DNA of 64,000 nt from Paracoccaceae bacterium (lineage in GTDB: Bacteria; Pseudomonadota; Alphaproteobacteria; Rhodobacterales; Rhodobacteraceae). Both the position numbers and the translations under genes were made by a program. The DNA is taken from NCBI GenBank assembly GCA_033344815.1, contig JAWPMR010000001.1, positions 4,326,136-4,390,135 of the forward strand, read 5' to 3'. The notes beneath the pieces are model-generated. The model was not told where the DNA came from, did not search any database, and saw only the letters and a program-made list of their open reading frames with translations. Shown one piece after another: positions 51,193 through 58,756 of this stretch; the stretch's first letter is position 1, and every line of letters starts with the position of its first letter.

Positions 51193-52086
51193 TCAATAGC
51201 TTTGGTGTGAAAAATAATCCGCCAGATGATCAATGACGGCACGAATGCGCGCGGTCAGGTGGCGCCCCGGCGGATAGACCGCATAAAGTCCCAACAGATC
51301 GGACTCATGCTTTTCAAGCAACAGCCTGAGCCGTCCCTCTTTGAGAAAAGGTGCCGCAGTGTAATGCGGAATGCGCCCTATCCCCAGACCATCTGCCGCC
51401 ATATGTGCAACAGCCAGTGGCGAATTCGCACGAAAATTGCCGGCAACGGGAATGCTGCTGTCATCGCCATCTGTCCGTACTTGCCAGTGATCTACGCTCT
51501 GCCGTGTCGTCTGCAACAGGCAGTTATGCGTCATGAGCGCATCTGGATCTTTCGGGGTTCCATGTTCTGACAGGTACTGCGGGGCCGCGCAAAAGACGAT
51601 CCGCATGTCCATCAGTTTTCTGGCCACCAGAGTGCTGTCCTTCAGAACACCGAACCGTATGGCCAGATCGAAACCCTGTTCAATGATTGAAACATGATGG
51701 TCAGATAAATGAAGGTCGACCTCAACCTTTGGATGGGCTTCTTGAAAGGGCTTTAATGCATGCACCAATTGCGCGCTGCCAAACCCGGTGGGGGCGGTGA
51801 TCCGCACCGGGCCTGCCAACTCTGACTGCCGCGACTGTACCAACCCTTCTAACTCATCAAACTGATCCAGAAGGGGCTGGCAGCGTTTGTAGTAGGCCTC
51901 GCCTGTTTCCGTCAGCGTTACGGATCGCGTTGTGCGATGGAAAAACTGAGCGCCGAGTTTTTCCTCAAGCTGGCGTACGTATTTGCTCGCCAGTTTGGTA
52001 CTGATCCCCAGACGCCGCGCCGCTTCGGTGAAGGACCCATGCGCGGCCACGGCGGCGAAGATGCGCATGCCTCGGATGGTATCCAA
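51193..52086 (-). CDS. LysR-family regulator divergent from GST gene
   Basis: A 297-residue LysR protein (HTH about 3-60: FAAVAAHGSFTEAARRLGIS, then KLASKYVRQLEEKLG; effector domain 90-297 with PVRITAPTGFGSAQLV). The start is TTG with GGGGA eight bases upstream. It is divergent from the GST gene and an A+T-rich dyad lies between them, so it probably controls the GST and flavin-protein operon, perhaps the dehalogenase too. Confidence 0.88.
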   Translation of the reverse strand: MDTIRGMRIFAAVAAHGSFTEAARRLGISTKLASKYVRQLEEKLGAQFFHRTTRSVTLTETGEAYYKRCQPLLDQFDELEGLVQSRQSELAGPVRITAPTGFGSAQLVHALKPFQEAHPKVEVDLHLSDHHVSIIEQGFDLAIRFGVLKDSTLVARKLMDMRIVFCAAPQYLSEHGTPKDPDALMTHNCLLQTTRQSVDHWQVRTDGDDSSIPVAGNFRANSPLAVAHMAADGLGIGRIPHYTAAPFLKEGRLRLLLEKHESDLLGLYAVYPPGRHLTARIRAVIDHLADYFSHQSY

Positions 52087-52111
52087 CTTATTATCCCCAT
52101 TTTGTACATAA

Positions 52112-52132
52112 ATATTCCAGATTTTGGTATAT
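52112..52132. promoter_or_regulatory. LysR-type dyad between lysR and GST genes
   Basis: An imperfect dyad (ATATTCCA against TGGTATAT) lies 26 bp from the LysR start and 78 bp before the GST ATG, in AT-rich sequence. It is a candidate regulator box. Confidence 0.42.
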
Positions 52133-52209
52133 TATCGCCGGAACCTGATCAAGCTATGTCTTCTCCTGTCCGGACCTACCGGAACCCAATTCAATAGAGG
52201 ACGGCCTCA

Positions 52210-52830
52210 ATGACAAACAACATCCGTATTCATAGTTTTCCGCTCTCCGGACATGCACATCGTGTCGTCCTTTTTGCCAATCTTGCGGGGATAGCCCATG
52301 ACGTTGTCGATGTGGATTTGCCAAATGGCGCGCATAAGACCCCTGAGTTCCTCGCGATGAACCCTGCCGGGCAAGTGCCGGTTCTGGAGGACACAGACAC
52401 ATTCATAAGCGATAGCAACGCGATTTTAGTATATCTCGCGCGCAAATATGCCCCGGGTTTTCTGCCCAGTGATCCGGTGCTTGAAGCCGAAGTGCAAAAG
52501 TTTCTGACGCTTGCTGCAGGCGAGATCGCTTTTGGCCCAGCCGCGGCACGGTTGATCACAGTGTTCAATGCGCCGCTTAATGCAGAGGCTTGCCATGCGA
52601 CCGCCGCGAAAGGCCTGGGAAAGCTTGAGGCACATCTGGAAGGACGTGATTTTCTCGTCGGCGATACGCCCAGCATCGCAGACGTCGCTATTTACAGTTA
52701 CACCGCACATGCACCAGAGGGGGGCGTTTCACTCGACCCTTACCCGAATGTGCGCCGCTTTCTATCCAATGTCGAAGCCTTGCCCGGTTTCATTGGCATG
52801 CCAAAAACCAAGGCGGGCCTGCAAGCTTGA
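52210..52830 (+). CDS. Glutathione S-transferase family protein
   Basis: A 206-residue GST: thioredoxin-like N-terminal domain with the Ser/His start SFPLSGHAHRVVLFANLAGI, GQVPVLED (cis-Pro) and SDSNAILVYLARKY, then a helical domain ending SIADVAIYSYTAHAPEGGVS. The ATG has AGAGGA upstream. It starts an operon-like pair with the flavin/ferredoxin fusion 63 bp downstream, with the reductive dehalogenase beyond. GST-type enzymes can remove halogens from organics, but this one cannot be assigned. Confidence 0.88.
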   Translation: MTNNIRIHSFPLSGHAHRVVLFANLAGIAHDVVDVDLPNGAHKTPEFLAMNPAGQVPVLEDTDTFISDSNAILVYLARKYAPGFLPSDPVLEAEVQKFLTLAAGEIAFGPAAARLITVFNAPLNAEACHATAAKGLGKLEAHLEGRDFLVGDTPSIADVAIYSYTAHAPEGGVSLDPYPNVRRFLSNVEALPGFIGMPKTKAGLQA

Positions 52831-52893
52831 CCTGTTATTGCGGCCGACGTGGGCGGAAGCGAACTCAACTTCGACATTCAAATGAGGTCTACC

Positions 52894-54963
52894 ATGCCTG
52901 ATCCTGATCCCACTACACCGTCGCCTTTCCACGAGGGCGAAAAAACCCTGCAAGTGCGTGCCGGCAAACGCGAGGCGATTGAGGCTTTTGGTCGTCGTGC
53001 AATTCGCCCGTTCATGCCAGACCAGCATCGTTCGTTTTTTGCCACGCTGCCGTTTCTGGTGGTCGGCAGTATGGATGATGGGGGACGGCCCTGGGCATCA
53101 ATCCTGGCCAGACGTCCGGGCTTTGTGCAGAGCCCCAGCAACACGCGTCTGGATGTGAAAGCGATGCCCGTGAAAGATGATCCTTTGGCCAAGAACCTGA
53201 AAACGGGCGCTGCGATTGGGATCCTTGGCATCGATCTCGGGACTCGGCGTCGCAATCGGATGAATGCAAGGGTGGCCAGCGTGAAGAGTGGTTCTTTTTC
53301 ACTGGAGGTGGATCAATCCTTTGGCAATTGCCCGCAGTATATTCAAACACGTGATATCGATTTTGTAAGAGACACCGCAATGGGCCATGACTCCGCGCCA
53401 ACGGAGCGGTTCGACACGTTGGACAACACGAAACGCGCGTGGATTGGCCAAGCGGACATGTTCTTTGTCGCCAGCGGTGTACATCCCAGTGATGATCCGG
53501 CGCGCCAAGGCGTTGATGTCTCTCATCGCGGTGGGCGTGCGGGCTTTGTCAAGGTCGAGGGTAACACCCTGACCATACCCGATTATTCGGGCAATTATTT
53601 GTTCAATACATTGGGTAATTTTCTGATCAATCCCAAGGCGGGTCTGACCTTCATCGACTTCTCAACCGGTGATGTCTTGAGCTTGACCGGTACGGTCGAA
53701 TTGCTGGGGGAAGATGACCCTGAGATAAGCGCTTTCAGGGGTGCTGAGCGGGGGTGGCGTTTCACGCTGGCTCATGGCGTGCAAATGTTTGATGCTCTGC
53801 CTTTGCGCGCGCGCTTCGGGGAATGGTCTCCCGGAAGCTTGTTGGCCGGTGATTGGGCCGAAACGGCAAAACAACTCAAAGCAGAGGCAGAACGCGACAT
53901 ATGGCGGCGTTTTGTGGTTAGCCGCATTGTGGATGAAAGCAGTGTCATTCGCTCGTTTTATCTGGAACCCGAAGATGCCACGCCTGTACCAAACTTTGAG
54001 CCGGGCCAGTTTTTGACGGTGCGCGCGACCCCGCGCGGGATGCATGAAGCGATTTTGCGAACATATACGGTTTCATCAGCGCCGAGCGACTCAGGTTACC
54101 GGATTTCGATCAAACATGAACTTGATGGTCAGATGTCAAATCACCTGCACACCGGACTCAAAGTAGGAGATACAATTGATGTAAAAGCGCCCAAGGGGAA
54201 TTTCACGCTTGATCCGGCAGAAACCCGGCCGGCGGTTTTGATTGGCGGCGGCGTAGGCATTACGCCGATGATTTCGATGGCGCGGCAAGTGGTTCACCAT
54301 GCGACGCGCACACGGCATTTGAGACCCATGACGATCTATCACAGTGCATCCAATACAATGCAACGCGCGTTTCGGGATGAGTTTCTAGTCTTGTCGGCCC
54401 AAAGCGACGGCGCGATCCAATACCACTCGCTGATCAGTAACCCGGCACGTGATGAGACCCGGGGTCAGGATTTTGATCATGTGGGACGGGTTAACGCAGA
54501 CATGATTAGAAATACCTTGCTGTTAGAGGATTGTGATTATTACATTTGCGGCCCAGCAGAATTCATGCAGGCGACGTACTCTGCATTGCGATCCGTGGGT
54601 GTTTGTGATCAGCGCATCAAGGCTGAGGCTTTTGGACCTGCCGCTTTGCAGCGTAGACCGGATGACCCAGCCGTTTTGCGCCAGGTTGATGAAGCTGAAA
54701 CCGCCGTGGTCAGATTTGCGAAGTCGCATGTTGAGCAGCCTTGGCACGCAGGTGATGCATCGCTGCTGGACACAGCGGAGGCCCATGGTTTGAAGCCTGA
54801 CTTTTCATGCCGAAATGGCGTATGCGGCAGCTGCGCTACCCGAAAGAGCGCAGGAGAGGTCGTGTATCGTACGCCCCCCACTGCAGAGATCGGTGTCGAT
54901 GAAATCCTGTTGTGCTGTGCCGTGCCGGCCAAGGGAACAGAAGTGTTGGAGTTGGACCTCTGA
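52894..54963 (+). CDS. PNPOx-like flavin domain fused to ferredoxin reductase and [2Fe-2S] domains
   Basis: A 689-residue cytosolic fusion. Residues about 20-320 form a pyridoxamine-phosphate-oxidase-like flavin module (FFATLPFLVVGSMDDGGRPW; GNYLFNTLGNFLINPKAGL). Residues 345-590 are a ferredoxin-NADP reductase (RTYTVSSAP flavin loop; GGGVGITPMISMA nucleotide loop). Residues 600-689 are a plant-type [2Fe-2S] domain with CRNGVCGSC and a distal CC. The three modules could pass NAD(P)H electrons to a small acceptor. ATG 52894 has GAGGT upstream. It follows the GST gene and precedes the dehalogenase, suggesting a shared redox task; the substrate is unknown. Confidence 0.87.
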   Translation: MPDPDPTTPSPFHEGEKTLQVRAGKREAIEAFGRRAIRPFMPDQHRSFFATLPFLVVGSMDDGGRPWASILARRPGFVQSPSNTRLDVKAMPVKDDPLAKNLKTGAAIGILGIDLGTRRRNRMNARVASVKSGSFSLEVDQSFGNCPQYIQTRDIDFVRDTAMGHDSAPTERFDTLDNTKRAWIGQADMFFVASGVHPSDDPARQGVDVSHRGGRAGFVKVEGNTLTIPDYSGNYLFNTLGNFLINPKAGLTFIDFSTGDVLSLTGTVELLGEDDPEISAFRGAERGWRFTLAHGVQMFDALPLRARFGEWSPGSLLAGDWAETAKQLKAEAERDIWRRFVVSRIVDESSVIRSFYLEPEDATPVPNFEPGQFLTVRATPRGMHEAILRTYTVSSAPSDSGYRISIKHELDGQMSNHLHTGLKVGDTIDVKAPKGNFTLDPAETRPAVLIGGGVGITPMISMARQVVHHATRTRHLRPMTIYHSASNTMQRAFRDEFLVLSAQSDGAIQYHSLISNPARDETRGQDFDHVGRVNADMIRNTLLLEDCDYYICGPAEFMQATYSALRSVGVCDQRIKAEAFGPAALQRRPDDPAVLRQVDEAETAVVRFAKSHVEQPWHAGDASLLDTAEAHGLKPDFSCRNGVCGSCATRKSAGEVVYRTPPTAEIGVDEILLCCAVPAKGTEVLELDL

Positions 54964-55291: not shown

Positions 55292-55534
55292 ACTAGTTGA
55301 TTTCAAACGTGACGAAGGTCGGTGCATCGCGATTTTCTTGCGTGCGTTACACCATACTGAACGCCGAAAAACGCGCGATGCGGCAAATCCCTGATCGAGT
55401 TTGCGTCGCCCCGTCAAGTTCGGAAAGGCGCCTGTTGATCGCACAATGGCATCTGTATAATTTTGACATCTGATGTTTTGCCGGGCATTGCAGTAACAAA
55501 ACAATCGGCTGCACACGCGCCAAAGGAAGACAAC

Positions 55535-58500
55535 TTGAACGCCCGAATATTTTCGACGCGAAAACGCCCGTTCCATCTTGGACCGTTTCCGCTGGAACGT
55601 CTGGCGCGCGCCGATGGTCAATCTGACTTGTCACATGTACCGGCGATGTCGCCCGTGCGGTTTGAGCATCGCGATACGCCGCGCTCTCTTGTAAGTGCCA
55701 TGAGCGAATATCAAGCGATGCTCGACGCCATTCGTGACGGATTGATCAATTCCGAAATTTCTCAATGCCCGGATGATCCTGAGGAACGGGCGCGCCATAT
55801 CAAGTCCTTTGGGTATTTTCAGGACGCACCGATGGTGGGCATCGGACGGCTTGAGGCGGACCATTTGCTCCGCACGCCAATACGAAATCCTGACATTGAC
55901 CGTCTGGTGGAGGATTTGAAAACCAAGCAAACCAAAACACTATCTGCCGGAATTGATACCATCATGGCGGACCTCAAGGACAGTATGACCGCGCCGCCGC
56001 GCAGTCTGGATGCCCATACGCATACGATTGTTTTCCTATACAACTACAACCGCGATCCCGCACGGGAAGAATCCGGTTATGACTGGATTTCGGGTGCCAA
56101 CCCTTACCGGGCGAGCCTTTTGGGGGCGGAAACCGCGATCATCATCGCAGGCTACCTGCGGGTCCTTGGCTATGACGCCAAAGCGCATACGTCCAGTGCG
56201 TCGGATGTCGATCTGAACAAATTGACGATCAGGGCCGGATTGGCGACGTTGGAAGACGGCCGACTGGTCAACCCTTATGTAGGGGATCGGTTTCAGGTGA
56301 CGGCGATCACGACGAATTTTGCCATGACACCGGATGCGCCGTTGGTGCCATTGTCCCAACAGCCGAAATCGGTGACCCGCGGCTGGGCTTGGAAACTCGG
56401 GGCCGGGTCCCAGAAAAATGCAATGACGTTGGATCCTTATGCCAAGCGTCACTATGCGCAGGGTGCCTATCCGTTTGAAACGCTGAAGCGAGTGGAAAAG
56501 CCGACAACCTATATTGACGAGGCGCGGGTGGCGCGGGTGCCCAAACGCACCGACATGTTCGCGCGCGCGCAGTTTGGCGACATGGGCAAAGCCAACCAGG
56601 AAGCGACCACGGGGGGATACTTCGCGCAAAAAGCGCCGATCAGCAGAGCAATACGCCGCCCATCCGGAGCGTTTCTGTTGTTGCAAAACGGGACCGTGGC
56701 GGATGACATTGCGCCGGATACCGAAGATGCGGCGCGCAACGCGGCCGGGATCAAGGCCGCGAGCTATTTCCTTGGTGCGGATGCGGTCGGGATTTCGCGC
56801 TGCCCTGATTGGGTGTGGTATAGCCACGATGCTGTGGGCGAGCCGATTGTGCCAACGCATACCAGTGCGATCAGCATGATTATTGATCAGGGTTTCGAGA
56901 CAACGGAAGGGTCCTCTGGGGACGACTGGATCGCGGTCACCCAATCCATGCGCGCCTATCTGCGGTTTGCCCTGCTGGGTGGGGTGATTGGCAAACACAT
57001 CCGCAACCTTGGCTATGAAGCCCGCGTTCACACCAATCTGGACGGGGAGGTGCTGCAACCGCCGCTGTTGCTATTGGCCGGGCTCGGAGAGGTCAGCCGC
57101 ATCGGCGAGGTGATCGTGAACCCTTTTCTGGGCCCGCGTCTGAAGTCCGGTTGCATCACCACAAACATGCCGCTGTCCCATGACAAGCCAATTGATTTTG
57201 GCATGCAGGCCTTTTGCGAATCCTGCAACAAATGCGCGCGTGAATGCCCGTCCGGGGCGATTACGGCAGGTCCGAAACTGATGTTCAATGGCTATGAAAT
57301 CTGGAAATCGGACAGCCAGAAATGTACAACCTATCGACTGACGCAAATGGGCGGGGCCATGTGTGGGCGGTGTATGAAAACCTGCCCCTGGAACGTCGAA
57401 GGGTTGCAGCACGAAAAACCTCTACGCTGGATCGCAATGAATGTCCCGGCCATGGCAGGCGTGTTGGCACGTGCAGATGATTTGGTGGGTAACGGCAGGA
57501 TCAACCCACAAAAGCGGTGGTGGTGGGATCTGAAGGTGAATGAGCGGGGTGGGTTTGATCCTGTTGAGGGGCCTTCCAATCAACGCGAACTGCAAACCGA
57601 TCTGAAGTTGAAGTACGAAGATCAGACCTTGGCTGTTTACCCCGCAAATCTGGCACCACCGCCCTGGCCTTTCCCTTTTCCGATGGACCGCGAGAAGGGG
57701 ATCGAAGCCTATCAGGCTCTGATCACCGCCAAGGAATACCAAACCCGGCTGGAACGTGGTGACACGGAAGGGTTGGCGCATACTTTTCTGGGCGGCGGCG
57801 ATGCGCCCGTCACCCGCGTGCAGGTGCGCAAAGTGACGCATTTGTCGCCAAAGGTCACGCAATACGAGCTTGCCTCCATCGATGGTTCGCCACTGCCAGA
57901 ATGGCGGGCGGGGGCGCATCTGGATATTGTGGTCGCGCCGGAATTCGTCAGACCGTATTCTCTTTCGGGCGATCCGGCTGATCGCTCTTGCTACAAGGTT
58001 TCGGTTCTGCGCGAAGACGACGGGCGCGGCGGCTCAAAATTACTGCACAAGATATTTTCAGAGGGGCGAAAGATATTTGTATCCAACCCGATCAACCACT
58101 TCCCGTTAAGGGATGAAGCGAGCAAACATATTTTAATGGGAGGGGGCATCGGGATCACGCCAATGATTGCCTTTGCTCATGAATGCCATGCCAGGGGCCT
58201 GGCTTTCGAAGTGCATTACTCAGCGTCTCGCCGTACTGAGGCGGCGTTTGCCGACGCATTGATGGCGCAACCCTGGGCTCGAAACGTGGCGTTGCATATA
58301 TCGGATGAAAACAACCGCGCAGTGCTTGACGAGGTTTTGTCTGGCTATCAGCCAGGTTGGCATGTCTATACCTGCGGTCCGGACCTCTACATGAACAGTG
58401 TAGTGCAAGCCGCGCAAAGGCAGGGTTTTCCAACGGAGGCCTGCCATATCGAATACTTTTCCGTGCCTGAATTGCCGGAGTATAAAAATCATCCCTTCAC

Positions 58501-58756
58501 CCTGAAAATTGCCAGTTCCGGACGAGAATTACAGGTGCCGGAGGATAAGGCAGCGACGGATGTTTTGCTGGAAAATGGGTTCAGCGTGGATGTGAAATGC
58601 TCCGACGGTATCTGCGGCGTTTGCAAATGTGATCTTGTGTCCGGGGAGGTTGAACATCGCGATTTTGTTTTGTCCAACAAACAACGTGAAAGCGCGCTTA
58701 TTCTATGTCAAAGCCGAGCTGCGAAACCGGGGGGAGTGGTCGAGATCGATTTATGA
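55535..58756 (+). CDS. rdhA: Self-sufficient reductive dehalogenase fused to NAD(P)H reductase
   Basis: A 1073-residue cytosolic protein. About residues 1-740 resemble corrinoid reductive dehalogenases, with eight cysteines for two ferredoxin-type clusters: CESCNKCARECP (Cys561, 564, 567, 571) and Cys597 with CGRCMKTCPW (610, 613, 617). From about 763 comes an oxygenase-reductase module: flavin site RPYSLSG near 805, nucleotide site GGGIGITPM near 869, and a plant-type [2Fe-2S] domain with CSDGICGVCKC near 1022 and a fourth Cys near 1057. There is no Tat signal and no membrane-anchor partner, unlike respiratory RdhA. This matches the aerobic catabolic type known from BhbA and NpRdhA. The TTG at 55535 with AAGGA upstream is preferred over a TTG at 55463. 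The substrate (probably a haloaromatic) is inferred. Confidence 0.88.
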   Translation: MNARIFSTRKRPFHLGPFPLERLARADGQSDLSHVPAMSPVRFEHRDTPRSLVSAMSEYQAMLDAIRDGLINSEISQCPDDPEERARHIKSFGYFQDAPMVGIGRLEADHLLRTPIRNPDIDRLVEDLKTKQTKTLSAGIDTIMADLKDSMTAPPRSLDAHTHTIVFLYNYNRDPAREESGYDWISGANPYRASLLGAETAIIIAGYLRVLGYDAKAHTSSASDVDLNKLTIRAGLATLEDGRLVNPYVGDRFQVTAITTNFAMTPDAPLVPLSQQPKSVTRGWAWKLGAGSQKNAMTLDPYAKRHYAQGAYPFETLKRVEKPTTYIDEARVARVPKRTDMFARAQFGDMGKANQEATTGGYFAQKAPISRAIRRPSGAFLLLQNGTVADDIAPDTEDAARNAAGIKAASYFLGADAVGISRCPDWVWYSHDAVGEPIVPTHTSAISMIIDQGFETTEGSSGDDWIAVTQSMRAYLRFALLGGVIGKHIRNLGYEARVHTNLDGEVLQPPLLLLAGLGEVSRIGEVIVNPFLGPRLKSGCITTNMPLSHDKPIDFGMQAFCESCNKCARECPSGAITAGPKLMFNGYEIWKSDSQKCTTYRLTQMGGAMCGRCMKTCPWNVEGLQHEKPLRWIAMNVPAMAGVLARADDLVGNGRINPQKRWWWDLKVNERGGFDPVEGPSNQRELQTDLKLKYEDQTLAVYPANLAPPPWPFPFPMDREKGIEAYQALITAKEYQTRLERGDTEGLAHTFLGGGDAPVTRVQVRKVTHLSPKVTQYELASIDGSPLPEWRAGAHLDIVVAPEFVRPYSLSGDPADRSCYKVSVLREDDGRGGSKLLHKIFSEGRKIFVSNPINHFPLRDEASKHILMGGGIGITPMIAFAHECHARGLAFEVHYSASRRTEAAFADALMAQPWARNVALHISDENNRAVLDEVLSGYQPGWHVYTCGPDLYMNSVVQAAQRQGFPTEACHIEYFSVPELPEYKNHPFTLKIASSGRELQVPEDKAATDVLLENGFSVDVKCSDGICGVCKCDLVSGEVEHRDFVLSNKQRESALILCQSRAAKPGGVVEIDL

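Follow-up and report, generated by a model that had tools for sequence, protein, structure and literature searches.

The window analysed here, 64,000 nucleotides of a Paracoccaceae bacterium (from 4326136 to 4390135 on one 5.08 Mb contig), encodes a single-chain reductive dehalogenase (RdhA) whose 1073-codon coding frame lies within a longer forward-strand frame (55463-58756), which stays open over 1097 codons when counted from its earliest TTG, at 55463 (Table 1). Eight relatives from the same branch of the RdhA tree (clade I, below) were fetched and seven inspected; all seven carry an AAGG box before a TTG, GTG or ATG at the homologous position, and TTG or GTG is the start codon in six of the seven. 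Because these relatives have a start backed by a ribosome-binding site at the homologous place, TTG 55535 is favoured and is probably the true start, despite the frame being open further back. We consider it likely, at a probability of roughly 0.92, that the window protein belongs with BhbA and JtRdhA as a cytoplasmic catabolic reductive dehalogenase that is self-sufficient and acts on ortho-bromo- and iodophenols with NAD(P)H.

The window protein scores 208.5 bits on TIGR02486 (reductive dehalogenase; cut-off 160.35), a profile that matches 41 of 41 members of a 41-row alignment (A2) at E<=1e-10. Using phmmer against PDB sequences, the RdhA half matches NpRdhA of Nitratireductor pacificus at E about 1e-167, a value that takes the likeness out of the reach of chance, and the reductase half matches phthalate dioxygenase reductase (PDOR; 2PIA) at E 5e-53, or 5e-54 with the C-terminal 318 residues alone. 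An earlier note, made from the DNA letters, had proposed a reductive-dehalogenase module with two ferredoxin clusters, a flavin/NAD(P) reductase, a plant-type [2Fe-2S] C-terminus and no Tat (twin-arginine translocation) signal, and all of these are borne out: the eight [4Fe-4S] cysteines are present, PF00111 exceeds its cut-off, and a simple scan (no signal-peptide program) found neither an RR in residues 1-60 nor any hydrophobic stretch within the first 80. That note had missed that the cobalamin-domain fold occurs twice. A second TIGR02486 match lies in the N-terminal third (41.5 bits, on its own below the cut-off) and fits the duplicated core domain, a vestigial copy, that PMC10463259 describes for catabolic RdhAs; the duplication is further backed by the alignment and by a structural match to both NpRdhA halves. 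The stretch at about residues 111-159 recurs in all six relatives of a seven-protein alignment (A1: the window protein and six relatives, BhbA among these); matched by description alone, it is possibly the insertion reported for RdhA-PDOR fusions such as JtRdhA (PMC10463259).

The active site is preserved. NpRdhA residues F291, S422, M423, Y426, K488 and R552, named in PMC10463259 as conserved between NpRdhA and JtRdhA, correspond to F342, S471, M472, Y475, K537 and R601 in the window protein (6/6 identical), and these six are invariant across the 41 rows of A2. The cysteines of the two [4Fe-4S] sets of NpRdhA are likewise kept (8/8), and 235 of 500 aligned positions are identical (47.0%; main segment, with the N-terminal stretch and the last alignment row left out). 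The AlphaFold2 model, built like the invariance count from A2, has a mean predicted local distance difference test score (pLDDT) of 76.9 and a predicted template-modelling score (pTM) of 0.76, and matches 4RAS (NpRdhA) with a TM-score of 0.85 and 2PIA with 0.65 (normalised by target). Neither of the refuting conditions named in the earlier note came true: catalytic Tyr and Lys agree with NpRdhA, as do the Arg and three further residues, and assignment to another Fe-S family failed (below). The match to BhbA extends over the full length (48.6%), and the predicted structure resembles both templates.

Table 1. Features of the reductive dehalogenase gene (window positions).
Feature	Coordinates	Strand	Basis
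Single-chain reductive dehalogenase gene, 1073 aa, TTG start, stop counted in	55535..58756	+	ORF (open reading frame), profile searches, alignments
Ribosome-binding site AAAGGAAG, ends 5 bases ahead of TTG start	55522..55529	+	Sequence; AAGG box in relatives
Cobalamin-domain fold, second N-terminal copy (vestigial in NpRdhA)	55775..56341	+	Weak TIGR02486 match; aligned with N-terminal half of NpRdhA
About residues 111-159, without counterpart in phmmer alignment to NpRdhA	55865..56011	+	Gap between two matched stretches
F342 (NpRdhA F291)	56558..56560	+	NpRdhA mapping; invariant in A1, A2
Catalytic cobalamin-binding and iron-sulfur part, residues 435-652	56837..57490	+	TIGR02486 match
S471, M472, Y475 (NpRdhA S422, M423, Y426)	56945..56959	+	NpRdhA mapping; invariant in A1, A2
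K537 (NpRdhA K488)	57143..57145	+	NpRdhA mapping; invariant in A1, A2
First [4Fe-4S] motif CESCNKCARECP, residues 561-572	57215..57250	+	Motif scan
Second [4Fe-4S] set C597, C610, C613, C617, with R601 inside	57323..57388	+	CGRCMKTCP at residues 610-618; NpRdhA mapping
R601 (NpRdhA R552)	57335..57337	+	NpRdhA mapping
Flavin/NAD(P)H reductase domain, phthalate dioxygenase reductase (2PIA)-like, residues 760-976, RPYS and GGGIGITP	57812..58462	+	phmmer, motifs
Plant-type [2Fe-2S] ferredoxin domain, residues 992-1062, CSDGICGVC at 1022	58508..58720	+	PF00111, 40 bits vs cut-off 21

Motifs, active-site residues, the fusion, the predicted fold and host genes for B12 and 4-hydroxybenzoate metabolism are what this analysis contributes to the identification. 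By analogy with JtRdhA and NpRdhA, the protein is most likely a B12 enzyme that removes bromine or iodine from phenols powered by NAD(P)H, and its cofactor use, electron path, halogen preference, oxygen tolerance and cytoplasmic location would be theirs. Hydride from NAD(P)H would pass to the flavin of the C-terminal PDOR-like module, the [2Fe-2S] domain would hand electrons singly through the two [4Fe-4S] clusters to a base-off corrinoid, and the reduced cobalt would abstract the halogen from an ortho-bromo- or iodophenol. The Tyr475-Lys537/Arg601 set would bind the phenol and donate a proton, with release of halide and phenol, and the product would enter ordinary aromatic catabolism, e.g. 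as 4-hydroxybenzoate via PobA and PcaGH. The host encodes CobN (two matches, together 1049.9 bits; cut-off 822) and, outside the window, PobA (672 bits; cut-off 538.7) and the protocatechuate 3,4-dioxygenase beta subunit PcaH (350.5 bits; cut-off 296.4), so debrominated 4-hydroxybenzoate could be used. Our guess is that the natural substrates are probably marine bromophenols or bromohydroxybenzoates.

Several observations weigh against this identification. PF13486 (Dehalogenase) gives no match to the window protein; the same profile returns zero matches in all seven A1 proteins even at E<=1, and since BhbA and five other relatives fail likewise, the miss does not count against membership. PF13486 seems not to cover the RdhA-PDOR subfamily, and surveys relying on it would undercount such proteins. 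The model has pLDDT below 50 at active-site stretches 338-352, 456-462 and 582-592, and the CobS-like protein of the host scores 107.1 bits, just under the cut-off of 110. Within the window no co-directional neighbour lies within 250 bases of the gene, and a scan of eight neighbours gave no evident gene for halophenol transport or for aromatic rings. As the gene stands alone with no telling gene among those eight, its substrate cannot be read from its neighbours.

The chief alternative, which we regard as unlikely, is that the target of this RdhA-like B12 enzyme is no halogenated phenol but, e.g., a different activated bond in a widespread marine metabolite. Retention of one gene in each species of the genus would be accounted for in this way; matches in all 19 genus genomes and in 150 of the 394 from the family exceed what is expected of a niche pollutant gene, the neighbours of RdhA vary among relatives, and epoxyqueuosine reductase (QueG), which PMC10463259 places with the dehalogenases in class III B12 enzymes, is a case of non-halogen chemistry within the class. 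Set against this are the identity of all six NpRdhA active-site residues, the efficient debromination by JtRdhA, an enzyme of the same make-up (PMC10463259), and the frequency of bromophenols among marine natural products (PMC13101508, PMC9322897). Decay is much less probable still: a TTG start and the lack of an operon partner within the window would suit a non-functional relic, but 1073 codons are open, every named catalytic and cluster residue is kept, TTG or GTG starts predominate in the clade-I relatives inspected, and no stops interrupt the gene in any of the 19 genus genomes. The least credible is a misreading of QueG or another Fe-S family as a dehalogenase, the alternative that the earlier note had itself singled out. 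Among other B12 [4Fe-4S] families QueG comes nearest, and its profile TIGR00276 does match weakly, yet at 28.4 bits the window protein is far under the cut-off of 200, the true QueG of the host (347 aa, 441.6 bits) is encoded separately, on contig C1 near 2477041-2477385, and the duplicated core and reductase fusion speak against it; QueG identity was rejected on the TIGR00276 score and the residues. A respiratory reductive dehalogenase (PceA type) was also rejected, as the Tat motif was not seen. No RdhB-like membrane anchor was found among the eight neighbours scanned with Pfam, a scan that excluded short ORFs.

The RdhA-PDOR type is widespread in this group. The earlier note counted few self-sufficient enzymes of this kind as characterised; in genomes the type is not rare: all 19 genus genomes (G000-G018, the window's included; loci L103-L119 and L155-L161) match at E<=1e-100, with one match each and zero internal stops, and in a family sample of mostly one genome per genus the RdhA half is matched at E<=1e-100 in 150 of 394 genomes (141 of 347 good ones). 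Among the family matches listed, open frames exceed 1000 codons except in four (911, 915, 801 and 671 codons); judged by length alone, frames above 1000 codons are long enough for the reductase fusion. Eight records of a plasmid collection cover >=80% of the query, including those of Ruegeria sp. TM1040 (65.5%) and pBHB (48.6%). Putative bhbA homologues have been reported as widespread in the Roseobacter clade (PMC13101508), and proteins of Ruegeria pomeroyi and Pseudovibrio have been placed in a tree of reductive dehalogenases (PMC10463259). The window protein is therefore a new example of a characterised enzyme type; neither the type nor its occurrence in marine Alphaproteobacteria is new. 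With so wide a spread in the family, aerobic debromination may be frequent within the marine bromine cycle. On a plasmid of Yoonia sp. SS1-5 (L009:10001-13208) an unannotated RdhA frame adjoining TRAP (tripartite ATP-independent periplasmic) transporter genes is broken, either a decayed copy or a sequencing error. Ruegeria sp. HKCCD8929 has two contigs (L016 and L046), each with a full-length RdhA, from different clades.

Within the genus, the single copy is not the same copy throughout. An RdhA tree of 75 rows was built (the window and 74 others of 102 loci with a called RdhA; near-duplicates removed by hand, no outgroup) as a quick tree with Shimodaira-Hasegawa-like approximate likelihood ratio (SH-aLRT) support only, leaving 21 of 72 inner branches open. 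It includes 18 of the 19 genus genomes (G009 out), which group at three distinct points: nine in clade I, the window's own, seven in clade II and two in clade III. A tree of a single marker, CobN, holds 17 labelled genomes (G017 has no full-length CobN match and G009 no clade label). On it the clade labels need 5 changes, against a minimum possible of 2, and well-supported branches force at least 2 per group. Shuffled labels need 6.8 changes on average and as few as 5 in 16 of 200 shuffles, so the labels are clustered by descent only in part. G001 (clade III) stands among clade-I species with support of 97/93, and G004 and G014 (clade II) are placed among these with weak resolution. RdhA lies near copper-chaperone and aldehyde dehydrogenase genes in eight of eight clade-I congeners examined; in G004, G014 and G001 the copper chaperone, a 149-aa gene, the aldehyde dehydrogenase and a 286-aa gene form one stretch without RdhA, which is elsewhere. 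Seven genomes, among them G009, which lay outside the stretches compared, are uninformative on the clade-I site: the aldehyde dehydrogenase was found alone in the stretch examined in G006, G011, G017 and G018, and G002 and G005 have no aldehyde dehydrogenase match at E<=1e-190. Exchange, or differential loss of old copies, fits this one-copy, three-clade pattern, a lead from one marker with short branches, and the unvarying copy number points to selection acting steadily.

Clues to natural substrates come from 105 loci (the window, L004-L090 and L103-L119), which include several strains of one species. Six congeners occur twice (L011-L014, L017 and L019 are the genomes of L117, L113, L111, L110, L114 and L116), and RdhA was missed by ORF calling in three loci (L037, L065 and L080). 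An arylsulfatase-type gene lies near RdhA in six of the 105 (L016, L029, L044, L045, L080 and L081), that of L044 being close to 4UPL. All six sulfatases contain the motif CGASR, which we take to be a fit to the formylglycine site. The sulfatase is immediately upstream of RdhA, with a gap of about 15 bases or less, in L029, L044 and L045, and TRAP-type importer genes are present in the other three loci. Gene order is DctQ, DctM, DctP, sulfatase, sulfotransferase, arylsulfotransferase-like and RdhA in L016 (Ruegeria sp. HKCCD8929); sulfatase, DctM, periplasmic binding protein and RdhA in L080; and sulfatase, metallo-hydrolase with an alkylsulfatase dimerisation domain, DctM, periplasmic binding protein, short-chain dehydrogenase and RdhA in L081 (HIMB11). 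In the RdhA tree L044 and L045 are sister rows, L016 belongs with the window to a fully supported 13-row group, L029 and L081 fall elsewhere, and L080 is not included. Lanosol-4,7-disulfate and other sulfated bromophenols are reported as main products in the red alga Vertebrata lanosa (PMC9322897). The adjacency of arylsulfatase-type and TRAP-type genes to RdhA suggests that algal bromophenol sulfates may be natural substrates in the relatives that bear them.

As a functional link the adjacency is a hint, counted without statistical control. The L081 sulfatase is matched in 13 of the 19 genus genomes, always on a different contig from RdhA or >60 kb away, so it is frequent irrespective of any RdhA linkage, and the window genome has no match to it at E<=1e-100, which counts against extending the sulfate reading to the window. 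No paper combining bromophenol, sulfatase and reductive dehalogenase was found in the open-access literature searched. A wider proposal, which we hold tentatively and think more doubtful than not, is that in some Roseobacter-group genera self-sufficient RdhA debromination serves as an almost obligatory housekeeping function and not for pollutants, its gene swapped rather than lost, and that in several lineages algal bromophenol sulfates are imported by TRAP transporters, desulfated by the arylsulfatase encoded next to RdhA and then debrominated. The one-copy-but-swapped pattern and the arylsulfatase/TRAP clusters make the natural-substrate question specifically testable. MarR and TRAP genes also adjoin RdhA in several further loci (e.g. 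L008, L049 and L071); RdhA is followed directly by members of one gene cluster in L048 and L050 (FAD_binding_3 in the latter), and members of a second cluster (SelO in L050) lie upstream of it in L047 and L050.

In the window, a LysR regulator (-), a GST (glutathione S-transferase; +) and a 704-aa PPOX-FNR-[2Fe-2S] fusion (+) occupy 51193-54963, between PhyH and RdhA. In the nearest relative (G003 = L105, 84% identical in RdhA) PhyH adjoins RdhA without this trio, so the three genes appear to have been inserted in the window genome or lost in G003. A functional link between RdhA and the trio was considered and not adopted, the trio being absent beside the L105 RdhA. A loosely similar trio (33, 50 and 37% identical) adjoins RdhA in Jannaschia (L005), so a link may still exist. 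Besides RdhA, only two clusters of window genes occur in more than four of the 105 loci, the aldehyde dehydrogenase (15 loci, representing 9 genomes) and the 286-aa gene (7 loci), and all loci sharing them belong to the window's genus.

Among named systems, the earlier note had offered BhbA and NpRdhA as self-sufficient precedents. BhbA (Comamonas sp. 7D-2, plasmid pBHB, NC_021077; WP_015585978, listed as BhbA in PMC10463259) stands, with the same domain order and the full-length identity given above (tblastn). Its plasmid is typed as conjugative and its neighbours are a protocatechuate 4,5-dioxygenase and a tripartite tricarboxylate transporter substrate-binding protein, whereas the window gene stands alone on the 5.08 Mb contig. 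NpRdhA (4RAS, 6ZXU, 6ZY1) is alike in the RdhA half and in its named active-site residues, but PMC10463259 describes it as having no reductase module, its gene being accompanied by those of separate redox partners, so it does not serve as a self-sufficient precedent. The megaplasmid-borne reductive dehalogenase of Ruegeria sp. TM1040 (WP_011537186) is 65.5% identical over its full length; no characterisation of it was found in the open-access literature, subscription papers being mostly outside the search. Ros_A3X954 of Roseobacter sp. MED193 is likewise from a marine Roseobacter-group host, has no Tat signal according to PMC13101508 and debrominates 2,6-dibromophenol, but it is reported to be oxygen-sensitive and, from where its motifs are placed (283-294 and 337-345), would be a shorter, distinct dehalogenase (PMC13101508); MED193 additionally encodes a relative that matches the window gene over the full length (L033, 66%). 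Among characterised enzymes the nearest precedent is JtRdhA (Jhaorihella thermophila, WP_104007082), which the earlier note did not name and which was compared through its published description. It shares a marine host, no reported Tat signal, a duplicated cobalamin-binding domain, two [4Fe-4S] clusters, a C-terminal PDOR-like module and the Tyr/Lys/Arg site (PMC10463259), and differs in being biochemically characterised. Its published identity to NpRdhA is about 39% (PMC10463259), compared with the 47.0% of the window protein, over different stretches. JtRdhA couples NADPH oxidation 1:1 to debromination of ortho-bromophenols, in air too, and is active on bromo- and iodophenols and not on the chlorophenols tested, the chlorinated compounds assayed being inhibitors (PMC10463259, J Biol Chem 2023).

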